This document shows, piece by piece, positions 18 through 61,263 of a stretch of 64,000 nucleotides of DNA. The stretch is taken from positions 3,968,001 to 4,032,000 of the forward strand of contig NZ_CP035913.1 of assembly GCF_004209755.1 (NCBI RefSeq), in the 5' to 3' direction. A program made the translations under genes and the position numbers. Positions within the stretch are counted from its first letter, which is position 1. Each line of letters begins with the position of its first letter. A model generated the notes under the pieces. It had not been told where the DNA came from. It searched no databases and saw nothing but the letters and a program-made list of their open reading frames with translations. The DNA is from Pseudoduganella lutea (lineage in GTDB: Bacteria > Pseudomonadota > Gammaproteobacteria > Burkholderiales > Burkholderiaceae_D).

Positions 18-332
18 CTACACTGAAAGGTATCCTGAACACCAACCATCAACCAATGACTGAATACTGTCGGCCATGAATTTGAACTCCTCATCAATGG
101 GATAAAAAGCCCAAAGTCCCGAGTGATGTTTCCGGTAACCAAAATCTATGCCGTCCGTTCCCGAACGCCCCACGGCAAAGAAGGCTTTCTTTCTAAGCAC
201 GTAGGTTTCGCTCAAGGGAACGACCAACAACATCTGTGAATCGTCATGGAAGAACCCGTCTTCCGGCCATTTGCCCCGGAAGTAATCTTCGCATTCATAA
301 GCAGCATACTTGTCGGGGATTTTCGGTGCCAT
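18..332 (-). CDS. SMI1/KNR4 (SUKH)-like small protein, possible immunity protein
   Basis: Predicted 104-residue soluble protein. Its C-terminal half shows FFAVGRSG, DGIDFGYR and GLWAFYPID before a short helical tail, a pattern I associate with the SMI1/KNR4 (SUKH) superfamily. Bacterial SUKH members often neutralise polymorphic toxins. I chose ATG at 332; an in-frame TTG at 341 is the alternative and neither has a clear ribosome binding site. Base composition is lower in GC than the housekeeping genes further right, which suits an accessory gene. The window begins 17 bases past the stop, so a partner toxin could lie outside. The family call is from motif memory only. Confidence 0.55.
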   Translation of the reverse strand: MAPKIPDKYAAYECEDYFRGKWPEDGFFHDDSQMLLVVPLSETYVLRKKAFFAVGRSGTDGIDFGYRKHHSGLWAFYPIDEEFKFMADSIQSLVDGWCSGYLSV

Positions 333-467
333 CGTGATCAAAAATATTGTAAGAATATAAAGGATGCATTTGGCCGTTTGCTGCCGTACAGTGTACGTCA
401 GCTTTCACCCCCCCAAAACAGCCGGGTGCAATTGAGCCGGTAGTAATCATTTTGACGGAGAAAGCCG

Positions 468-767
468 CTACCGGCGTGTAGTCTGCAGTCGGCGTATTGC
501 AGCAATTCCGGCCTCCATCTTTTCCCGCGCTGAGCTATTGGCAGAGTGCACGTGAATCAGCGGTGGAATGAAACCTCGCAGTGCCACTGCTTCCTCAATC
601 CAGAGCACTACGTCGTAGCCTGTGCCACGCTCATCATTGCCTAAATCGTGATCAAGACTGAGCTCCACGACATTCCCGGTCGATAGCAGCGTCACGGCCT
701 CATCAGGCCAATAGACCCGAACCCAGCCATCTGGCGTAGCTCTTTCATCGTCGAGATAGACTTTCAT
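468..767 (-). CDS. cyclic-phosphate processing receiver-like domain protein
   Basis: Single-domain protein of 99 residues. It opens with MKVYLDDERATPDGW, then has a central LSLDHDLG and GYDVVLWIEE, and later PLIHVHSANSSAR. This arrangement (DDER near the N-terminus, DHDLG, HVHSAN) matches the receiver-like family annotated as cyclic-phosphate processing receiver domain, predicted to act on cyclic phosphate ends or cyclic nucleotides. It is not a normal response regulator: no DNA-binding domain and no kinase are near. ATG at 767 is preceded by an AAGGG about ten bases upstream. Its role here is unknown. Confidence 0.6.
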   Translation of the reverse strand: MKVYLDDERATPDGWVRVYWPDEAVTLLSTGNVVELSLDHDLGNDERGTGYDVVLWIEEAVALRGFIPPLIHVHSANSSAREKMEAGIAAIRRLQTTRR

Positions 768-977
768 TTTTGGTGCCCTTGCAAGGTCCGATCTTAGTTG
801 AAAACGGTCGACTACAGTGCCTCAATGTAAGGGGTTGTTCCTATCAGAACAAGCTATGGGTTCGTCGGGCGCTATCAAGCCGCTTTTTACTTGTGGCGAT
901 ATCGGAAGCCTGCCCGGCCGCAAACTGCCTCGAACTGACAGCGATATGCTTTCCTGACGTTAACTACAGGAGGGAAC

Positions 978-1400
978 ATGTCCGACTTTTATCGCTATTT
1001 CAAGGAGAACATGGATGGGCTTGGCTTACCAGCACCGGAATCCCTGTATGGGACGTGCCAAACGGCCGTAGCCAATGCCGCGGTTCTGCTCGGCCAAGTC
1101 GACAAATTTGGACGGAAGGTTACGATCAGGGAGCTCATTGTCGCGGGCACCCGGCTGGAACAACTTGCCGTGATTGGCGCGCTGTCAGCCGCCTTCTACG
1201 TTGGTGCGGTTATTGGCAGTATTGCAGTCGCCGCCGGGCGAGTACTGGGCAACGGAACTTCGCTAGCCGACGTGCTGCTGCTGGCCCACCAGAAACATCT
1301 GGGCAGGCCGTGGCTTCGTGCCACGCTTCAACGCTGGCCAGGCACCTATCAAGAAGCGCCAGGCCGCAACATGTATCGACAGGCAGCGACACAGCGATGA
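978..1400 (+). CDS. small membrane protein of unknown function, glycine/alanine-rich membrane segment
   Basis: Unrecognised protein of 140 residues. A strong AGGAGG-type ribosome binding site lies just before ATG 978, so this start is well supported. Residues about 60-90 form one long hydrophobic stretch rich in Gly and Ala (LAVIGALSAAFYVGAVIGS), a glycine-zipper-like membrane segment; the N-terminus is polar and the tail is basic. The stop overlaps the ATG of the next small gene by four bases (ATGA), which suggests coupled translation. Short membrane-active proteins of this shape occur in toxin or accessory loci, but no function can be assigned. Confidence 0.6.
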   Translation: MSDFYRYFKENMDGLGLPAPESLYGTCQTAVANAAVLLGQVDKFGRKVTIRELIVAGTRLEQLAVIGALSAAFYVGAVIGSIAVAAGRVLGNGTSLADVLLLAHQKHLGRPWLRATLQRWPGTYQEAPGRNMYRQAATQR

Positions 1401-1582
1401 AGGACAGGATCCTTCTTATTCTGGCCGCACTGGGATGCTCGTTGGCTGCCTGGGCATTCTGGCATTACATGGACCAGAATGCACTCGAGGTGCTTGTCCT
1501 GGTGGCTCTGATCGCCGCAATCGGGGACAACTGGCGGTTGCGTCGCGCCCTGCGATCAGCCGGGGACGGCACGAAGCCTTGA
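1397..1582 (+). CDS. small membrane protein, 61 residues, unknown
   Basis: Starts at ATG 1397 inside the stop of the preceding gene (ATGA overlap). It has two hydrophobic segments: residues about 4-22 (ILLILAALGCSLAAWAFWHY) and residues about 29-43 (EVLVLVALIAAIG). A basic tail (WRLRRALR) follows, consistent with a two-pass inner-membrane protein with a cytoplasmic C-terminus. Coupling to the upstream membrane protein suggests the two act together. No family recognised. Confidence 0.5.
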   Translation: MKDRILLILAALGCSLAAWAFWHYMDQNALEVLVLVALIAAIGDNWRLRRALRSAGDGTKP

Positions 1583-1676
1583 TGATGAGGCGATGAAGCG
1601 ATCCTCACTCGAGAACGCCAACCTCGACGGCTTGGCGTCCTTGTTCGTGATGATTCGCCTGCTTGGCCCTCCCAGC

Positions 1677-3770
1677 TTACTTCCAGATAAACCGCGTCCC
1701 ATCCCCGCTCTCGGTCAACGGCCCCGCGCTGTCGACCGATACCTTGCCGCTGGCCGGATCCACCCGCACAAAGCGGTTGTTGGCCAGCGCCATCAGCACC
1801 AGCTCCCCGGTCGGCGTCTCGATCCACTGGAAGCTCTGCGCCTCGCCCGGTGCGCCGTCGGCCAGCGACAGGGCGCCATCGGCGCCGACCGTCACATACT
1901 GTTTACCGGCCCGCAGCGCGACGCGGCCCAGCTTCATGTCTTCGACTGTGAACCTGGACGGCGTGCCAGCCGACAAGCGGCCATCGCCGGCGTGCAGCCC
2001 GGTCTTCGCATCAAAAGAGGTCAACGTCACCGATCTACCGAACGGGATCGCCCGCATCAATCCATGCGGATAGGGCTGGTAGACGTCGACGCTGTCGAAG
2101 TCGGCCACGCCGCCCTCGGCACCGGCCGTGTTGTAATTGAACAGGGCATAGCGCACGCCCTGGAACGTCACGAGCTGGAAGATCATCGTGAACTCGTCGC
2201 CGACCGGCACGAAGGTCTTGCCGTCGAACGAGTACGAGAAGCGCGCCTTTTCCGTGAGGAAGTCGGCATCGGCGCGCAGCCAGATGCGTGGAGCATTGGC
2301 ACTGAGCTTCACCGCGACCCGCTTCGTCGTGTTGCGCGCCTGGTCGAAGACGGCGATCGACAGCCCGCTGGCGGTCTTTTCCACGCCCAGTGTCGCGTAC
2401 GGCAGGTTCAGCAGCGCCAGGCCGGCCACGTCGCCATCTTTCAGGCCGCCGGCATCCAGCACGACGGTTGGCGAGGAGCGAGGTCCGATGGCTCGCTGCG
2501 TGAGGCTGTTCTTCGCTTCCCAGAACGACTTCGCCGGCAGCGCATGCAGGCGCAGGTAACCCGGCCGCTCGGCCAGCGACCACTTGCCGTCCACCGGCAC
2601 ATGGTTCCACTGCCAGACCGGTTTCAGCGCCGAGCCTGAAAAGTCGTCGCTGCGCTCGTAGGGAACGCGCGCCGGCTGCGGTTCGGCCGTCTTCGGCTTG
2701 ACCCACGTGCGCGGGTTGCGGCCCAGGTTGCCGGGCAGGCCGAAGTACGGCCAGCCATCCTGCCACGTGACCGGCGACAGCGACAGCAGCCGGCCCACCG
2801 AGTTGTAGTCCATCATCGAGTAGCCCCACCATTCGCCGGCCGGCGTGAACACGATGCCGCCCTGGTGGATCGCGGTGGAGTCGTGTCGCTTCGGATTGCC
2901 GGGGACCACCTCGAAGGGGGGCGTGTTCTTTTTCAGCCGGTTGCCCTCGGCCATGCCGAAACCTTCGTTCGTGCTGATGGAGTGGTTTACTTCCCAAGGA
3001 CCAAACGGGGTGTCCGCGCGCGCCGCCGGCATGCGGAAGCCGCCGGCGTAGTTCGCGCTGAGGATGTAGTACTTGCCGTCGATCTTCAGGAAGTGGGCAC
3101 CTTCGCCCATGCCCTGGTCCTTCGTGAAGACCACCTTCTCGGTGCCGGGCACCAGGTCGGTCAGGTCGGCGGTCAGCTGGGCCACCTTCATTTCCTGGTG
3201 GTCCCACACCACGTAGACCTTGCCGTCGTCGTCGAACAGCACCGACAGGTCATGCAGGCTGCGCTTCATCTCGCGGTGGGTCCATGGGCCTTTCGGGTCG
3301 GTGGCCGTATAGATCTGCGTGCCGCGGCCGTTGACGTTGGAGAAGATGTAGAAGGTGCCGTCGTGGAAGCGGAAGCTGGGCGCCCAGATGCCCCGGCCGT
3401 AGATCCCCTTGCCGTCTTCGAGCCGATAGGCCGGGCCGAAGTCGAGCTTCGGCGTGGCGTAGCTCAGGAACTCCCAGTTCACCAGGTCCTTCGAGCGCAG
3501 CACCGGCAGGCCCGGCATCGCGTGCATCGTGGTGCCGGTCAGGTAGAACCAGTCGCCCACGCGGATCATGTCCGGGTCGGAGAACTCGTCGTAGAACAGC
3601 GGGTTGGTGAAGGTGCCGTTGCCGTTGTCCGGCGTCCAGGTCTTCGTCGACAGGCCTTGCGCCGGGCGCGCTTCGTGCTGGGCCATGGCGGGCGCGGTGA
3701 GCAAAGTAGAAGACAGGGTGGAAGACAGGGCCAGCGCGATGGCGAGGCGCAGGGAGCGGGGAGTCGGCAT
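1677..3770 (-). CDS. secreted glycoside hydrolase family 43 protein (beta-xylosidase/arabinosidase type)
   Basis: 697-residue exported glycosidase. A signal peptide (residues 1-30, ending AMA before Q) is followed by a five-bladed GH43 catalytic domain. The three acidic residues of the family are visible: Asp65 in SDPDM, Asp174 in HDLSVLFDDDG and Glu223 in GEGAHFL. A second beta-sandwich domain (about 380-590, starting SDDFSGSAL) resembles the C-terminal module of GH43 xylosidases, and the last 80 residues look like a beta-trefoil/fascin-like module. The frame stays open to 3854, but ATG 3770 places the signal peptide at the N-terminus. Likely substrate is arabinoxylan-type polysaccharide; the exact specificity is not readable. 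The gene stands alone, without a sugar transporter beside it. Confidence 0.88.
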   Translation of the reverse strand: MPTPRSLRLAIALALSSTLSSTLLTAPAMAQHEARPAQGLSTKTWTPDNGNGTFTNPLFYDEFSDPDMIRVGDWFYLTGTTMHAMPGLPVLRSKDLVNWEFLSYATPKLDFGPAYRLEDGKGIYGRGIWAPSFRFHDGTFYIFSNVNGRGTQIYTATDPKGPWTHREMKRSLHDLSVLFDDDGKVYVVWDHQEMKVAQLTADLTDLVPGTEKVVFTKDQGMGEGAHFLKIDGKYYILSANYAGGFRMPAARADTPFGPWEVNHSISTNEGFGMAEGNRLKKNTPPFEVVPGNPKRHDSTAIHQGGIVFTPAGEWWGYSMMDYNSVGRLLSLSPVTWQDGWPYFGLPGNLGRNPRTWVKPKTAEPQPARVPYERSDDFSGSALKPVWQWNHVPVDGKWSLAERPGYLRLHALPAKSFWEAKNSLTQRAIGPRSSPTVVLDAGGLKDGDVAGLALLNLPYATLGVEKTASGLSIAVFDQARNTTKRVAVKLSANAPRIWLRADADFLTEKARFSYSFDGKTFVPVGDEFTMIFQLVTFQGVRYALFNYNTAGAEGGVADFDSVDVYQPYPHGLMRAIPFGRSVTLTSFDAKTGLHAGDGRLSAGTPSRFTVEDMKLGRVALRAGKQYVTVGADGALSLADGAPGEAQSFQWIETPTGELVLMALANNRFVRVDPASGKVSVDSAGPLTESGDGTRFIWK

Positions 3771-3917
3771 GGTGGGGGCGGCGGGCGCGGTCGATATGGG
3801 GAGCCCAACATAACCCCAACGGCGGTCGATCGCCAATGAATTTTTGTGGCTCATCCATATGAACTTCGGTATGCCCGCGGCCCGGTGTCCCGGCGCTGAA
3901 GTTCGTTCATCCCCGAG

Positions 3918-4682
3918 TCAGGTCGCCAGGGGGAAAACGATGCCCTCGCTGCGCCATCCGGCAGGCGCGGGTGCCGTATAACCTTCGAGGAGCAGGCCGC
4001 CATGCGGTGCCAGCGTGCGCCGCGCGGCCGTGTCGAACAGCGCCTTGCCGGCCGCCGGGTCGGCCGCGAGCGCCGCCATCGCGGCCACGAGGTCGGTGGC
4101 CAGCGCGGGGTCCACGGCGCGCAGTCGCCGCGCCAGATGCTTGCCGTCGCCGGTCCATGCGCCGGCCGCGCGCAGCGCGAACAGGGCCAGCGTGTCGTAC
4201 AGCTTGACGGCCGTGGCCAGCGTCTCGTCGGGCGCGGTGCCATCGATCAGGTCTTCGAGCAGCGTGGTGATCGCGTAGCGGTGACCGGCAAGCATCGCCG
4301 GTGTCGGTGCCGGCGGGCCGAGATCGAACAGCTCACGCGCATGAGTTCGCAGCCATGCGGCGGCACCGGTATCGGGCAGCAGGCTCACGCCATCGAGCAC
4401 CATCTCGACCAGCGGCATGCGCCCGGCGGGCCGGTCGACGGTGCGGCAGAAGTAGTCGAACGTGGCGGGGTCATGGCCGAACAGCTCGACCGTTTGCGCA
4501 CCCACTTTGAACGTGTCGCGCCATGCGTGGTCGACGCGGTCGAACACGAGCAGCAGGTCGATGTCCGACGTCGGCGTGGCTTCGCCGCGCGCGATCGAAC
4601 CGCCGATGATCGCCACCTTCGCATCGGGCCAGCGCGGCAGCAGGTGACGGGTGACGAGGTGGCGTGCGGCGTCGATATGCAT
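3918..4682 (-). CDS. nucleotidyltransferase domain protein
   Basis: 254-residue cytoplasmic protein. The N-terminus carries the polymerase-beta-type nucleotidyltransferase signature: GGSIARGE (residues 27-34) followed by TSDIDLLLVF, giving the G-S and D-x-D metal-binding residues. The rest is helical, with an extended alanine-rich C-terminal half that may bind the acceptor substrate. Relatives include antibiotic- and tRNA-modifying transferases and many of unknown substrate; nothing here identifies the substrate. It stands alone between the GH43 gene and the long gap on its promoter side. Confidence 0.75.
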   Translation of the reverse strand: MHIDAARHLVTRHLLPRWPDAKVAIIGGSIARGEATPTSDIDLLLVFDRVDHAWRDTFKVGAQTVELFGHDPATFDYFCRTVDRPAGRMPLVEMVLDGVSLLPDTGAAAWLRTHARELFDLGPPAPTPAMLAGHRYAITTLLEDLIDGTAPDETLATAVKLYDTLALFALRAAGAWTGDGKHLARRLRAVDPALATDLVAAMAALAADPAAGKALFDTAARRTLAPHGGLLLEGYTAPAPAGWRSEGIVFPLAT

Positions 4683-4983
4683 GGGTCGTCTTTCGATATG
4701 AGAAGCGGGCAGTGTAGCCCGCGCGCGGCGCGCTCGCGCAGGCTCGCGGTGGCCGCACCAACGCCGCTACATCAACGCCGAGTACGTTCGCGAGAACGTC
4801 CGCATCGAGCATGCCGCGGCACGCACGGCACCTCGCGCGGCCTGTCGCATCGCCCTTTCGGGCAAGCGTGCGCACGGTTGCGCCACATTTTTTTCAAGTG
4901 CGGCGTCATCCATGTCGTGGCCTCGCGACGACGCGTCGACACCGCTCCTGCATGCCGGCTCAAGCATGCGGCGATGTTTGACT

Positions 4984-5023
4984 GCTTTGCATAGCGCCCT
5001 TACCTAAAGGTGGTATGCAAAGC
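4984..5023. repeat. inverted repeat, 10-bp arms
   Basis: GCTTTGCATA at 4984-4993 is the exact reverse complement of TATGCAAAGC at 5014-5023. The 20-base interior carries a smaller ACCT/AGGT pair, so the RNA could form one extended hairpin. It has no run of T after it and does not look like an intrinsic terminator. Candidate operator or structured RNA. Confidence 0.6.
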
Positions 5024-5647
5024 GAGGTGTGTGGGGGATCGTCGCGAAGTGCATGCGTTCGATGGCGCGTGGCGTGCGCGATGCACTCGGCTATGTGCGT
5101 TACCTCGCGCAGCCCGGTAAAAAAAGAGTGCGAAATGCATGCGTGCCGGTTGCGCATCATAAAGGTTTTCGTGTACTTTACGAGCTTGAAAAGACCGTGA
5201 TTTGCAAGCACTCTTTTTCGAGTGTGCCGCTCCGGCGAAAACCCAAGAACAACAGGACAAAAGTTCGCACAGATATGCACGACGACCACACGGTTATCTG
5301 GTATGCCGCCTCGCCTGAACATCGTCGGGCCGGGCGGTTTTTTCTTTGAGCGCCAGAACACGATGTGAGCAAATGCTGGGTTCGGAGCTGAGTGCGCGCC
5401 CGTCCCTGGAGACACAGAACAAGAATTTTCAGACCGGCGCCGCGCGCCCGTGCCAGGAGCACGAATGAAAGCGGTGGCGTCGATCGAATGGCTGAAGTGC
5501 TGCAGTCGTGAGGAGCTGCAGCAGTTCAGCCGGGTGCCGAATTCATTAGTGCAAACACCGCGATGCTTGTGCCGATGAATAATTCGCCCTGTGTACCGAC
5601 GGGTATGCCGGACGGGTTTCAACTATGTGCGTAATTTCATCCCGGAT

Positions 5648-58694: not shown

Positions 58695-60253
58695 TCAGCG
58701 GGTTGCCTTCCTGCGGCGGGAGAGCAGCCAGGCGGCCAGCACGCTTGCCGCGGCCAGCGCGAGGATCAGGCGGTTCTGCAGCACGATGTAGGGCGTGTCG
58801 CCCGTCATGCCCTGCACGGTGGCCTTCAGCACGCCGGCCTGGTAGTACGGCAGGCTCGCCCGGATCACGCCGCGGTGGTCGATGACGACAGTGGCGCCGT
58901 TGTTCGTGGCCGCCAGCATCGGGCGCCCTGTTTCCAGGGTACGCATCTGCGAGATCTGCAAGTGCTGCGGGATCGCCACCGATTCGCCGTACCAGGCCAG
59001 TTCGGAGACATTCAGCAGCACGGTGGCGCCGGAACCCGCAATTTTCCCATTACTCAATTGCGCCGCGATCTCTTCGCCGAAGTTGTTTTCGTAGCAGATG
59101 TTCGGCAGTACGCGCTGGTCCTTCACGGCAAACGACGGCTGCAATGTTTCGCCGCGGGTCTGGTCGCCCAGCGGGATGCGCATCATGTCGGTGAACCAGC
59201 GGAAGCCGAGGGGGATGAATTCGCCGAACGGCACGAGATGATGCTTGTCGTAGCGGTAGGGTTTGGCCAGTGTGGGCCCCAGGCCCATCACGCTGTTCGC
59301 ATAGCGGGTAGGGCTGTCGGCGAACGGCATGCCCAGCACCACGGCGCTGCCGGTCTTGCGGGCGAACTTGCCGTAGGCGTCCAGGTAGCCCGCCGGCAGC
59401 TGCTGCGGGAACAGCGGGATGCCTGTTTCCGGGATCGCGATCAGGTCGGCCGGTTCGGCCAGCACGATTTCCTGGTAGCGCCGCAGCGTGTTGCCGATAT
59501 GGTTCGGGTCGAACTTGGTCTGCAGCGGGATGTTGGCCTGCACCAGGCGCACCGTCAGCGGCTTTCCGGTCGGCGTGGTCCAGTCGATCCACTGCAGCGA
59601 CCAGCCGCCGACCCACAGTGCGGCGATCAGCGACAGCGCTGGCTTGCGCACCGGGTGCATCAGCAGCAGCAGGGCGCCGGCGGTGATGGCCACGATCCAG
59701 CCGATACCGAACACGCCCAGAACGGGGGCATATCCAGCGAGGGGGAGGCATTGTGCGCATAGCCGCTGGACGCCCACGGGAAGCCCGTGAACAGCCAGCC
59801 GCGCGTCCATTCGGAAACGGCCCACAGCGCCGGCAGCACAAGCAAGTTCGCGGCCGGCAGCGACAGGCCCCAGCGCTTGCGCAGCCAGGCGGCGGCACCC
59901 ATCGCGGCAGCGCAGTGCGCGCCCATGTAGACCGCCAGCAGGGCAATGGCAATCCAGGCCAGCGGCAGCGGCAGGCCGCCGAACCGCGAGATCGCGATCG
60001 TCAGCCAGTGCACGCCGGCCAGGCACCAGCCGAAGCCGAATGCCCAGCCGATGAACGCCGAGGCCTTGACGGATTCGGCGCGCAGCACCTGGTAGAACAG
60101 GATCGCCAGCGTGAGCAGCTGGATCGGCCACCAGCCGAGCGGCGCGAACGACAACACGCTCGCGCCGCCGGCAATGGCGGCGATGAGCATGCGGCTCTTG
60201 GTGCTGCGGGGCGGGGCGGGCGGTGCGCCGGGCGCGGCGCGGCGAAAACGCAT
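58695..60253 (-). pseudogene. lnt: apolipoprotein N-acyltransferase, reading frame broken by one base
   Basis: Lnt adds the third acyl chain to lipoproteins in the inner membrane. The N-terminal membrane half reads correctly from ATG 60253 to GFPWASSGYAHNASP. The rest, beginning LAGYAPVLGVFGIGWIVAI, is in the next frame. Adding one C to the five-C run at 59741-59745 (G on the plus strand) restores a 519-residue protein, the normal size. The nitrilase domain keeps its three catalytic sites (IPETGIPLF, KHHLVPFGEF, PNICYENNFG). As written, the gene yields only a truncated membrane protein. Since lnt is usually essential, a base-calling error is likely, but a real lesion is not excluded. It overlaps corC by one base (TGATG). 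Confidence 0.88.
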
Positions 60254-61130
60254 CAATCCTGCTCGTCGATGGCGGGTGGCAGTTTCTCGACCGTCAGCAC
60301 GTGGATCTGGCGGGCATCGGCACGCAGGACTTCGAAGCGCAGGTTGTCGATGTCAAACACGTCTCCCTTGTGGGGCATGCGGGCCAGGTGCTTGGCAACG
60401 AAGCCGCCGATGGTGTCGACGTCGTCGTCTGGCAGGTCGGCGTCCAGTTCCTCGTTGAACTGGCCGATCTCGGTCAGTGCCTTGACGCGCCAGCGCGGAC
60501 CCAGCTGCCCTTCGCGGATGGAAAGGATGTTGTCTTCCTCTTCATCGAAATCGTATTCATCCTCGATGTCGCCGACGATCTGTTCCAGCACGTCCTCGAT
60601 CGTGATCAGGCCGGCCACGCCGGAATACTCGTCGACGACGATCGCCATGTGGTTGTGGTTGGCGCGGAAGTCGCGCAGCAGCACATTCAGGCGCTTCGAC
60701 TCGGGGATGAAGATTGCCGGGCGCAGCATGCTGCGCACGTCGAACGACTCTTCGGCATAGTAGCGCAGCAGGTCTTTCGCCAGCAGGATGCCGACAACCT
60801 TGTCACGCTCGCCCTCGATGGCCGGGAAGCGCGAGTGCGCCGTTTCCAGCACGAGCGGCATCCACTCTTCGATGGGCTTGGTGATGTCGATGACGTCCAT
60901 CTGCGAGCGGGGCACCATGATGTCGCGCGCGGACAGGTCGGATACCTGGAACACGCCCTCGATCATCGACAGGGCGTCGGCATCGATCAGGTTGCGTTCG
61001 TGGGCTTCGTGCAGAACATCGAGGAGCTCGGAGCGGTTTTCCGGCTCGGGGAGATCAGGGCGGTAAGTCGCTCGAGAAGTGAGCGGTGGGGTTTAGCGTC
61101 ATTCCTGACGCTAGTAGAGTGCTCTTGCAT
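60253..61130 (-). pseudogene. corC: HlyC/CorC family transporter accessory protein, reading frame broken near the N-terminus
   Basis: CorC-type protein with two CBS domains (from DIMVPRSQMDV to EDVLEQIVGDIEDE) and a C-terminal transporter-associated domain (DTIGGFVAKHLARMP), linked to Mg/Co homeostasis. From ATG 61130 the frame reads MQEHSTSVRNDAKPHRSLLE and on to LTALISP, then shifts. The continuing sequence EPENRSELLDVLHEAHERN is in another frame. Adding one C to the four-C run at 61048-61051 restores 292 residues, the family length. Without it, only an internal ATG at 60966 (MIEGVFQVSDL) could give a shortened protein. This is the second one-base lesion in the same operon. Confidence 0.85.
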
Positions 61131-61263
61131 AGCAGGCATAAAGCCATTTGTTTCGAAGGGATACAGGATACACCAAACGGAAGGGAAGGGCGGTTTTTAT
61201 CAAAAAGTCATCGGCAGCGTGCCGATGTCATCGTCATCTGGTAGGCTTGCGCCGGGAGGAAGC

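Follow-up and report, generated by a model that had tools for sequence, protein, structure and literature searches.

Homopolymers are where deletion errors accumulate in long-read assemblies, mostly in runs of 4–5 bases, and in the MinION profile A/T deletions are about twice as common as G/C deletions, according to the excerpted text of PMC12007338; in the corresponding part of PMC8011154, Racon-Medaka R9.4 assemblies contained 151–5298 pseudogenes versus 12–136 in the true genomes. For lnt, the excerpted part of PMC7240156 indicates that Betaproteobacteria have just one lolF gene and that lnt appears nonessential in species with LolF, and PMC11784454 agrees in the part considered, limiting lnt essentiality to species with LolC and LolE.

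The locus described here has features of both systems. As in the excerpts on long-read homopolymer errors (PMC12007338, PMC8011154), its genes are broken by one-base deletions at homopolymers of about 4–5 bases, but, unlike in the MinION assembly of PMC12007338, no A/T runs are affected, and the number of broken genes (70–110 when scaled) is lower than in the Racon-Medaka R9.4 assemblies (151–5298 pseudogenes; PMC8011154). PMC8812927 is a further entry on homopolymer indels in such assemblies. As in the LolF species for which the excerpt of PMC7240156 gives lnt deletions (Neisseria gonorrhoeae, Francisella tularensis and Helicobacter pylori), LolC/E-family genes over the family cut-off are present, here in a betaproteobacterium. 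In contrast to those strains, which according to the same excerpt were tested gene deletions, this is a bare one-base lesion known from the assembly alone, and, unlike the LolF species described there, the genome has two adjacent LolC/E-family genes.

The corC-lnt locus and its two frame breaks

The analyzed window is a 64,000-nucleotide stretch (positions 3,968,001–4,032,000) of a single contig of 7,504,849 bases. The gene order on the minus strand is corC followed by lnt, with the lnt start overlapping the corC stop, and the following features were recognized:

60987..61139, minus strand: corC 5' open frame, 50 residues, from ATG to a premature stop (read from the sequence)
61048..61051, minus strand: four-C run, corC frame break, one base short of the family frame
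60253..60966, minus strand: corC 3' piece, 237 amino acids, from ATG 60966 to 60253
59746..60253, minus strand: lnt 5' piece in the family frame, ATG at 60253, overlapping the corC stop
59741..59745, minus strand: five-C run, lnt frame break, one base short of the family frame
58695..59738, minus strand: lnt 3' piece, 347 amino acids, in another frame, with a CN_hydrolase (nitrilase-fold) domain

The initial annotation had located the breaks at minus-strand CCCCC 59745–59741 in lnt and CCCC 61051–61048 in corC, and both positions proved exact. Its proposal that one base would restore 519 and 292 residues also held: the lnt span (60253–58695, 1,559 nt) and the corC span (61130–60253, 878 nt) are each one base shorter than 519 and 292 codons plus stop, respectively, and relatives of these lengths were among those listed (P0001 with 519 amino acids for lnt and P0121 with 292 for corC). 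The corC 5' frame has an ATG at 61139 and a second one at 61130 and ends with the stop at 60989–60987, while the 3' piece shares CBS and transporter-associated domains with the relatives listed for it and is 97% identical to Pseudoduganella umbonata. In G003, the nearest relative, the lnt ortholog at the same locus scored 285.5 bits to the Lnt model TIGR00546 (cut-off 132.9), and the best match of the corC ortholog was CorC NF011675 with 254.1 bits, below the model's cut-off of 379.

Relatives and genome-wide survey

The nearest named relatives belonged to Pseudoduganella and other Oxalobacteraceae. A scan for relatives of CorC found 584 stretches, from which the best 80 (named) were kept. Among these, corC was open through the site in all 80, in a frame of 295 codons or more that reaches 58 codons or more upstream of the 237-residue piece, and both lnt halves lay in one open frame in all 79 relatives holding both, the stretch of the remaining one ending before lnt; neither lesion was shared with any of these best 80 of 584 (0/80 for corC and 0/79 for lnt). 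Intact second copies, which the initial annotation had thought worth seeking elsewhere in the genome, did not emerge: the search for a second lnt in the genome found none, and that for a close second corC yielded other CorC-domain proteins with at most 31% identity. The 120 best clusters listed per gene showed no unbroken, nearly identical protein from a second assembly of the strain, although clusters at 90% identity could hide one, and a search for literature on the strain found none.

Using G003 as the reference, a persistent frame change inside the gene was scored gene by gene over 800 kb of the window's genome (3.44–4.24 Mb) and a further 400 kb (6.43–6.83 Mb, with 70 kb aligned). Sufficient alignment was available for 588 G003 genes (624,114 nt; 525 in the first region and 63 in the second), of which 11 were internally broken in the window's genome: six in the first region and five in the second. 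All 11 lesions were one-base losses at G/C runs reading 3–5 bases in the assembly, with neither a gain nor a break at an A/T run among them (p 0.001 for 11/11 losses if gains and losses are equally likely); A/T runs of 5 and 6 bases numbered 257 and 48 in the first-region coding sequence, versus 275 and 46 G/C runs. Within the window, 51 tested genes lay wholly inside and the broken ones were lnt and corC. The nine broken genes away from the operon (G000:C1 near 3718971, 3818750, 3883403, 3921450, 6511676, 6519086, 6524856, 6802503 and 6814723) included a VC_2705-family symporter, a hybrid histidine kinase, a LysR-type regulator and a phospholipase-A-like protein (the matches of the kinase, regulator and phospholipase being below the models' own cut-offs), four genes without a family match, two of which may be NTF2-like and M64-peptidase-like, and one outside the family scan. 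None of the ten broken genes besides lnt was clearly essential. Scaled to the genome, some 70–110 genes would be broken alike.

The reverse comparison, with G003 tested in the same way, gave two internal breaks of other kinds. Near position 511603 of G003:C2 a two-base loss breaks a gene that is open in the window's genome (340 codons), and near 637838 of G003:C1 one extra base in a seven-C run breaks a gene that is open there over 697 codons. The first region produced 11 G003-referenced flags, five of which were dropped because the frame drifted at a gene edge or ahead of the start, while all five from the second region were retained. The reverse flags comprised ten in the first region (three repeats of the region's own lesions, six edge or non-coding cases and one kept) and six in the second (four repeats, one edge case and one kept).

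The lesion rate was uneven, with six in 562,627 nt of the first region versus five in 61,487 nt of the second (p 0.003), which fits patchy consensus quality; alignment was poor in the second region, however, which may be accessory DNA. Within 6430001–6830000, only 70 of the 400 kb could be aligned with the G003 stretch expected there, and 200 genes were called versus 289. Together with the more numerous frame changes, this points to either accessory DNA or a poorer consensus.

Three other methods were less sensitive. A strict coding-phase test on alignment gaps found 1 versus 1 breaks, with neither lnt nor corC detected; tblastn gave 2 versus 2 frame changes over the first 400 kb, with corC found and lnt flagged only in the reverse direction; and a reference-free frame model, which gave 35 versus 29 frame changes (800 kb each) and 42 versus 18 in the second region, was too noisy for lesion counts. 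In-frame stops were equal between the two genomes in the first region (10 versus 10), mostly in the last codons.

In both genes the incomplete codon is that of a proline, the third base of which varies among the five relatives shown. At the corC site, five C are present in two of these five, versus four in the window, while in lnt the codon directly opposite the incomplete one is CCG, the commonest proline codon of the window's genome, in three of the five. Because of this variable third base and the prevalence of CCG, the missing base is not nameable. The initial annotation had taken it from the C run itself: the frame is indeed lost at the run, and the run is a plausible source, not a certain one base by base. 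The opposite possibility, that an interrupting base was lost rather than a member of the run, was considered since 9 of the 11 sites differ in G003, but was rejected, as ordinary G/C runs of equal length would give 9.05 of 11.

Origin of the breaks

Both lesions are very probably residual one-base consensus errors and not gene loss, as far as can be read from the sequence. The consensus of the single-contig genome sequence would retain one-base deletion errors at short G/C runs, with both corC and lnt being whole in the bacterium itself. We infer that the cause was base calling or polishing and not mutation. Sequencing error is the most likely source because the same one-base gap occurs in nine other genes and the relatives are unbroken; true gene loss takes many forms, whereas here only one lesion form is in excess, recurring across unrelated genes of the same assembly (11/588, all one-base losses at G/C runs). 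Of the two readings offered by the initial annotation, it is thus the consensus error that was borne out, by these further genes and by an intact selection pattern in corC and lnt. Several points count against it: the closeness of the two lesions (with six breaks in 800 kb, the chance of a pair 1.3 kb apart is about 0.05 by hand arithmetic), the lack of a clearly essential gene among those broken, the equal in-frame stops, the little or no excess found by the three less sensitive methods and the lack of an A/T-run lesion.

The selection pattern was evident in the codon positions. Compared with G003, first and second positions differed by 1.0% in corC, which is among the most conserved 4% of genes, and by 4.7% in lnt, while third positions differed by 19.5 and 20.9%, respectively. 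Each gene had its one frame break, with no further break or in-frame stop in either. Judged by these substitutions, both genes still evolve as genes under selection do. Broken and unbroken genes were equally constrained (Mann-Whitney p 0.28 and 0.54), in line with errors that strike genes irrespective of constraint, although with 11 lesions the test is weak.

That both genes suffered real and very recent one-base losses in the sequenced culture is unlikely. G/C runs also slip in natural mutation, and a recent loss would not yet have altered the substitution pattern, which makes the constraint result compatible with it. Such a culture would have no Lnt, with diacylated lipoproteins sorted by LolF-type transporters, and its CorC would at best be a shortened 237-residue form. 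The initial annotation regarded lnt as usually essential in proteobacteria: this stands for species with LolC and LolE and appears not to apply to those with LolF, as far as the excerpts of PMC7240156 and PMC11784454 go. LolC/E-family genes are present in this genome, and, with Betaproteobacteria carrying LolF and lnt appearing nonessential there according to these excerpts, a real lnt loss would be less startling than previously held. On the other hand, recent loss needs a separate lesion in each of two genes, and the same kind of lesion, always a loss and never a gain, is present in nine others. A mutator strain was also considered and rejected: mutS and mutL are both full length, and their integrity gives no sign of a mutator.

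The single-LolF rule itself may not carry over unchanged, since two LolC/E-family genes occur here and in some relatives. The adjacent genes at G000:C1:6997167-6998405 and 6998505-6999743 are 67% identical over 423 residues. Two such genes over the cut-off were present in 7 of the 25 genomes searched, the window's genome included, and were adjacent in five of the seven; the pair is possibly a LolF duplication. It is unlikely that two one-base deletions in one operon have only lately deprived a free-living relative or member of Pseudoduganella of Lnt and of the CorC front part, with its diacylated lipoproteins now carried by two tandem LolF-type genes.

Programmed frameshifting or run-length switching, restoring both proteins from the DNA as written, is highly improbable. 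In its favor, the downstream frames are still open and conserved, but the genes are in one frame in the relatives compared, the same lesion is present in nine unrelated genes, and run-length switching would call for runs longer than four or five. The other reading of the initial annotation, a real decay of lipoprotein acylation, is not supported. In its older form, in which the operon fell into disuse long ago, it agrees with both genes reading as broken, but is already contradicted, as far as sequence can tell, by the low divergence at first and second codon positions relative to third ones and the lack of further frame breaks or in-frame stops.

Implications for gene content

If real, the loss of lnt would, by analogy, be one that the cell can survive, and its interest would be moderate. 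On the preferred reading of residual consensus errors, the locus illustrates that two such errors a short distance apart can make an important envelope pathway look lost, and, since by scaling some 70–110 genes would be broken alike, any claim of gene loss based on this record should first be checked against reads.
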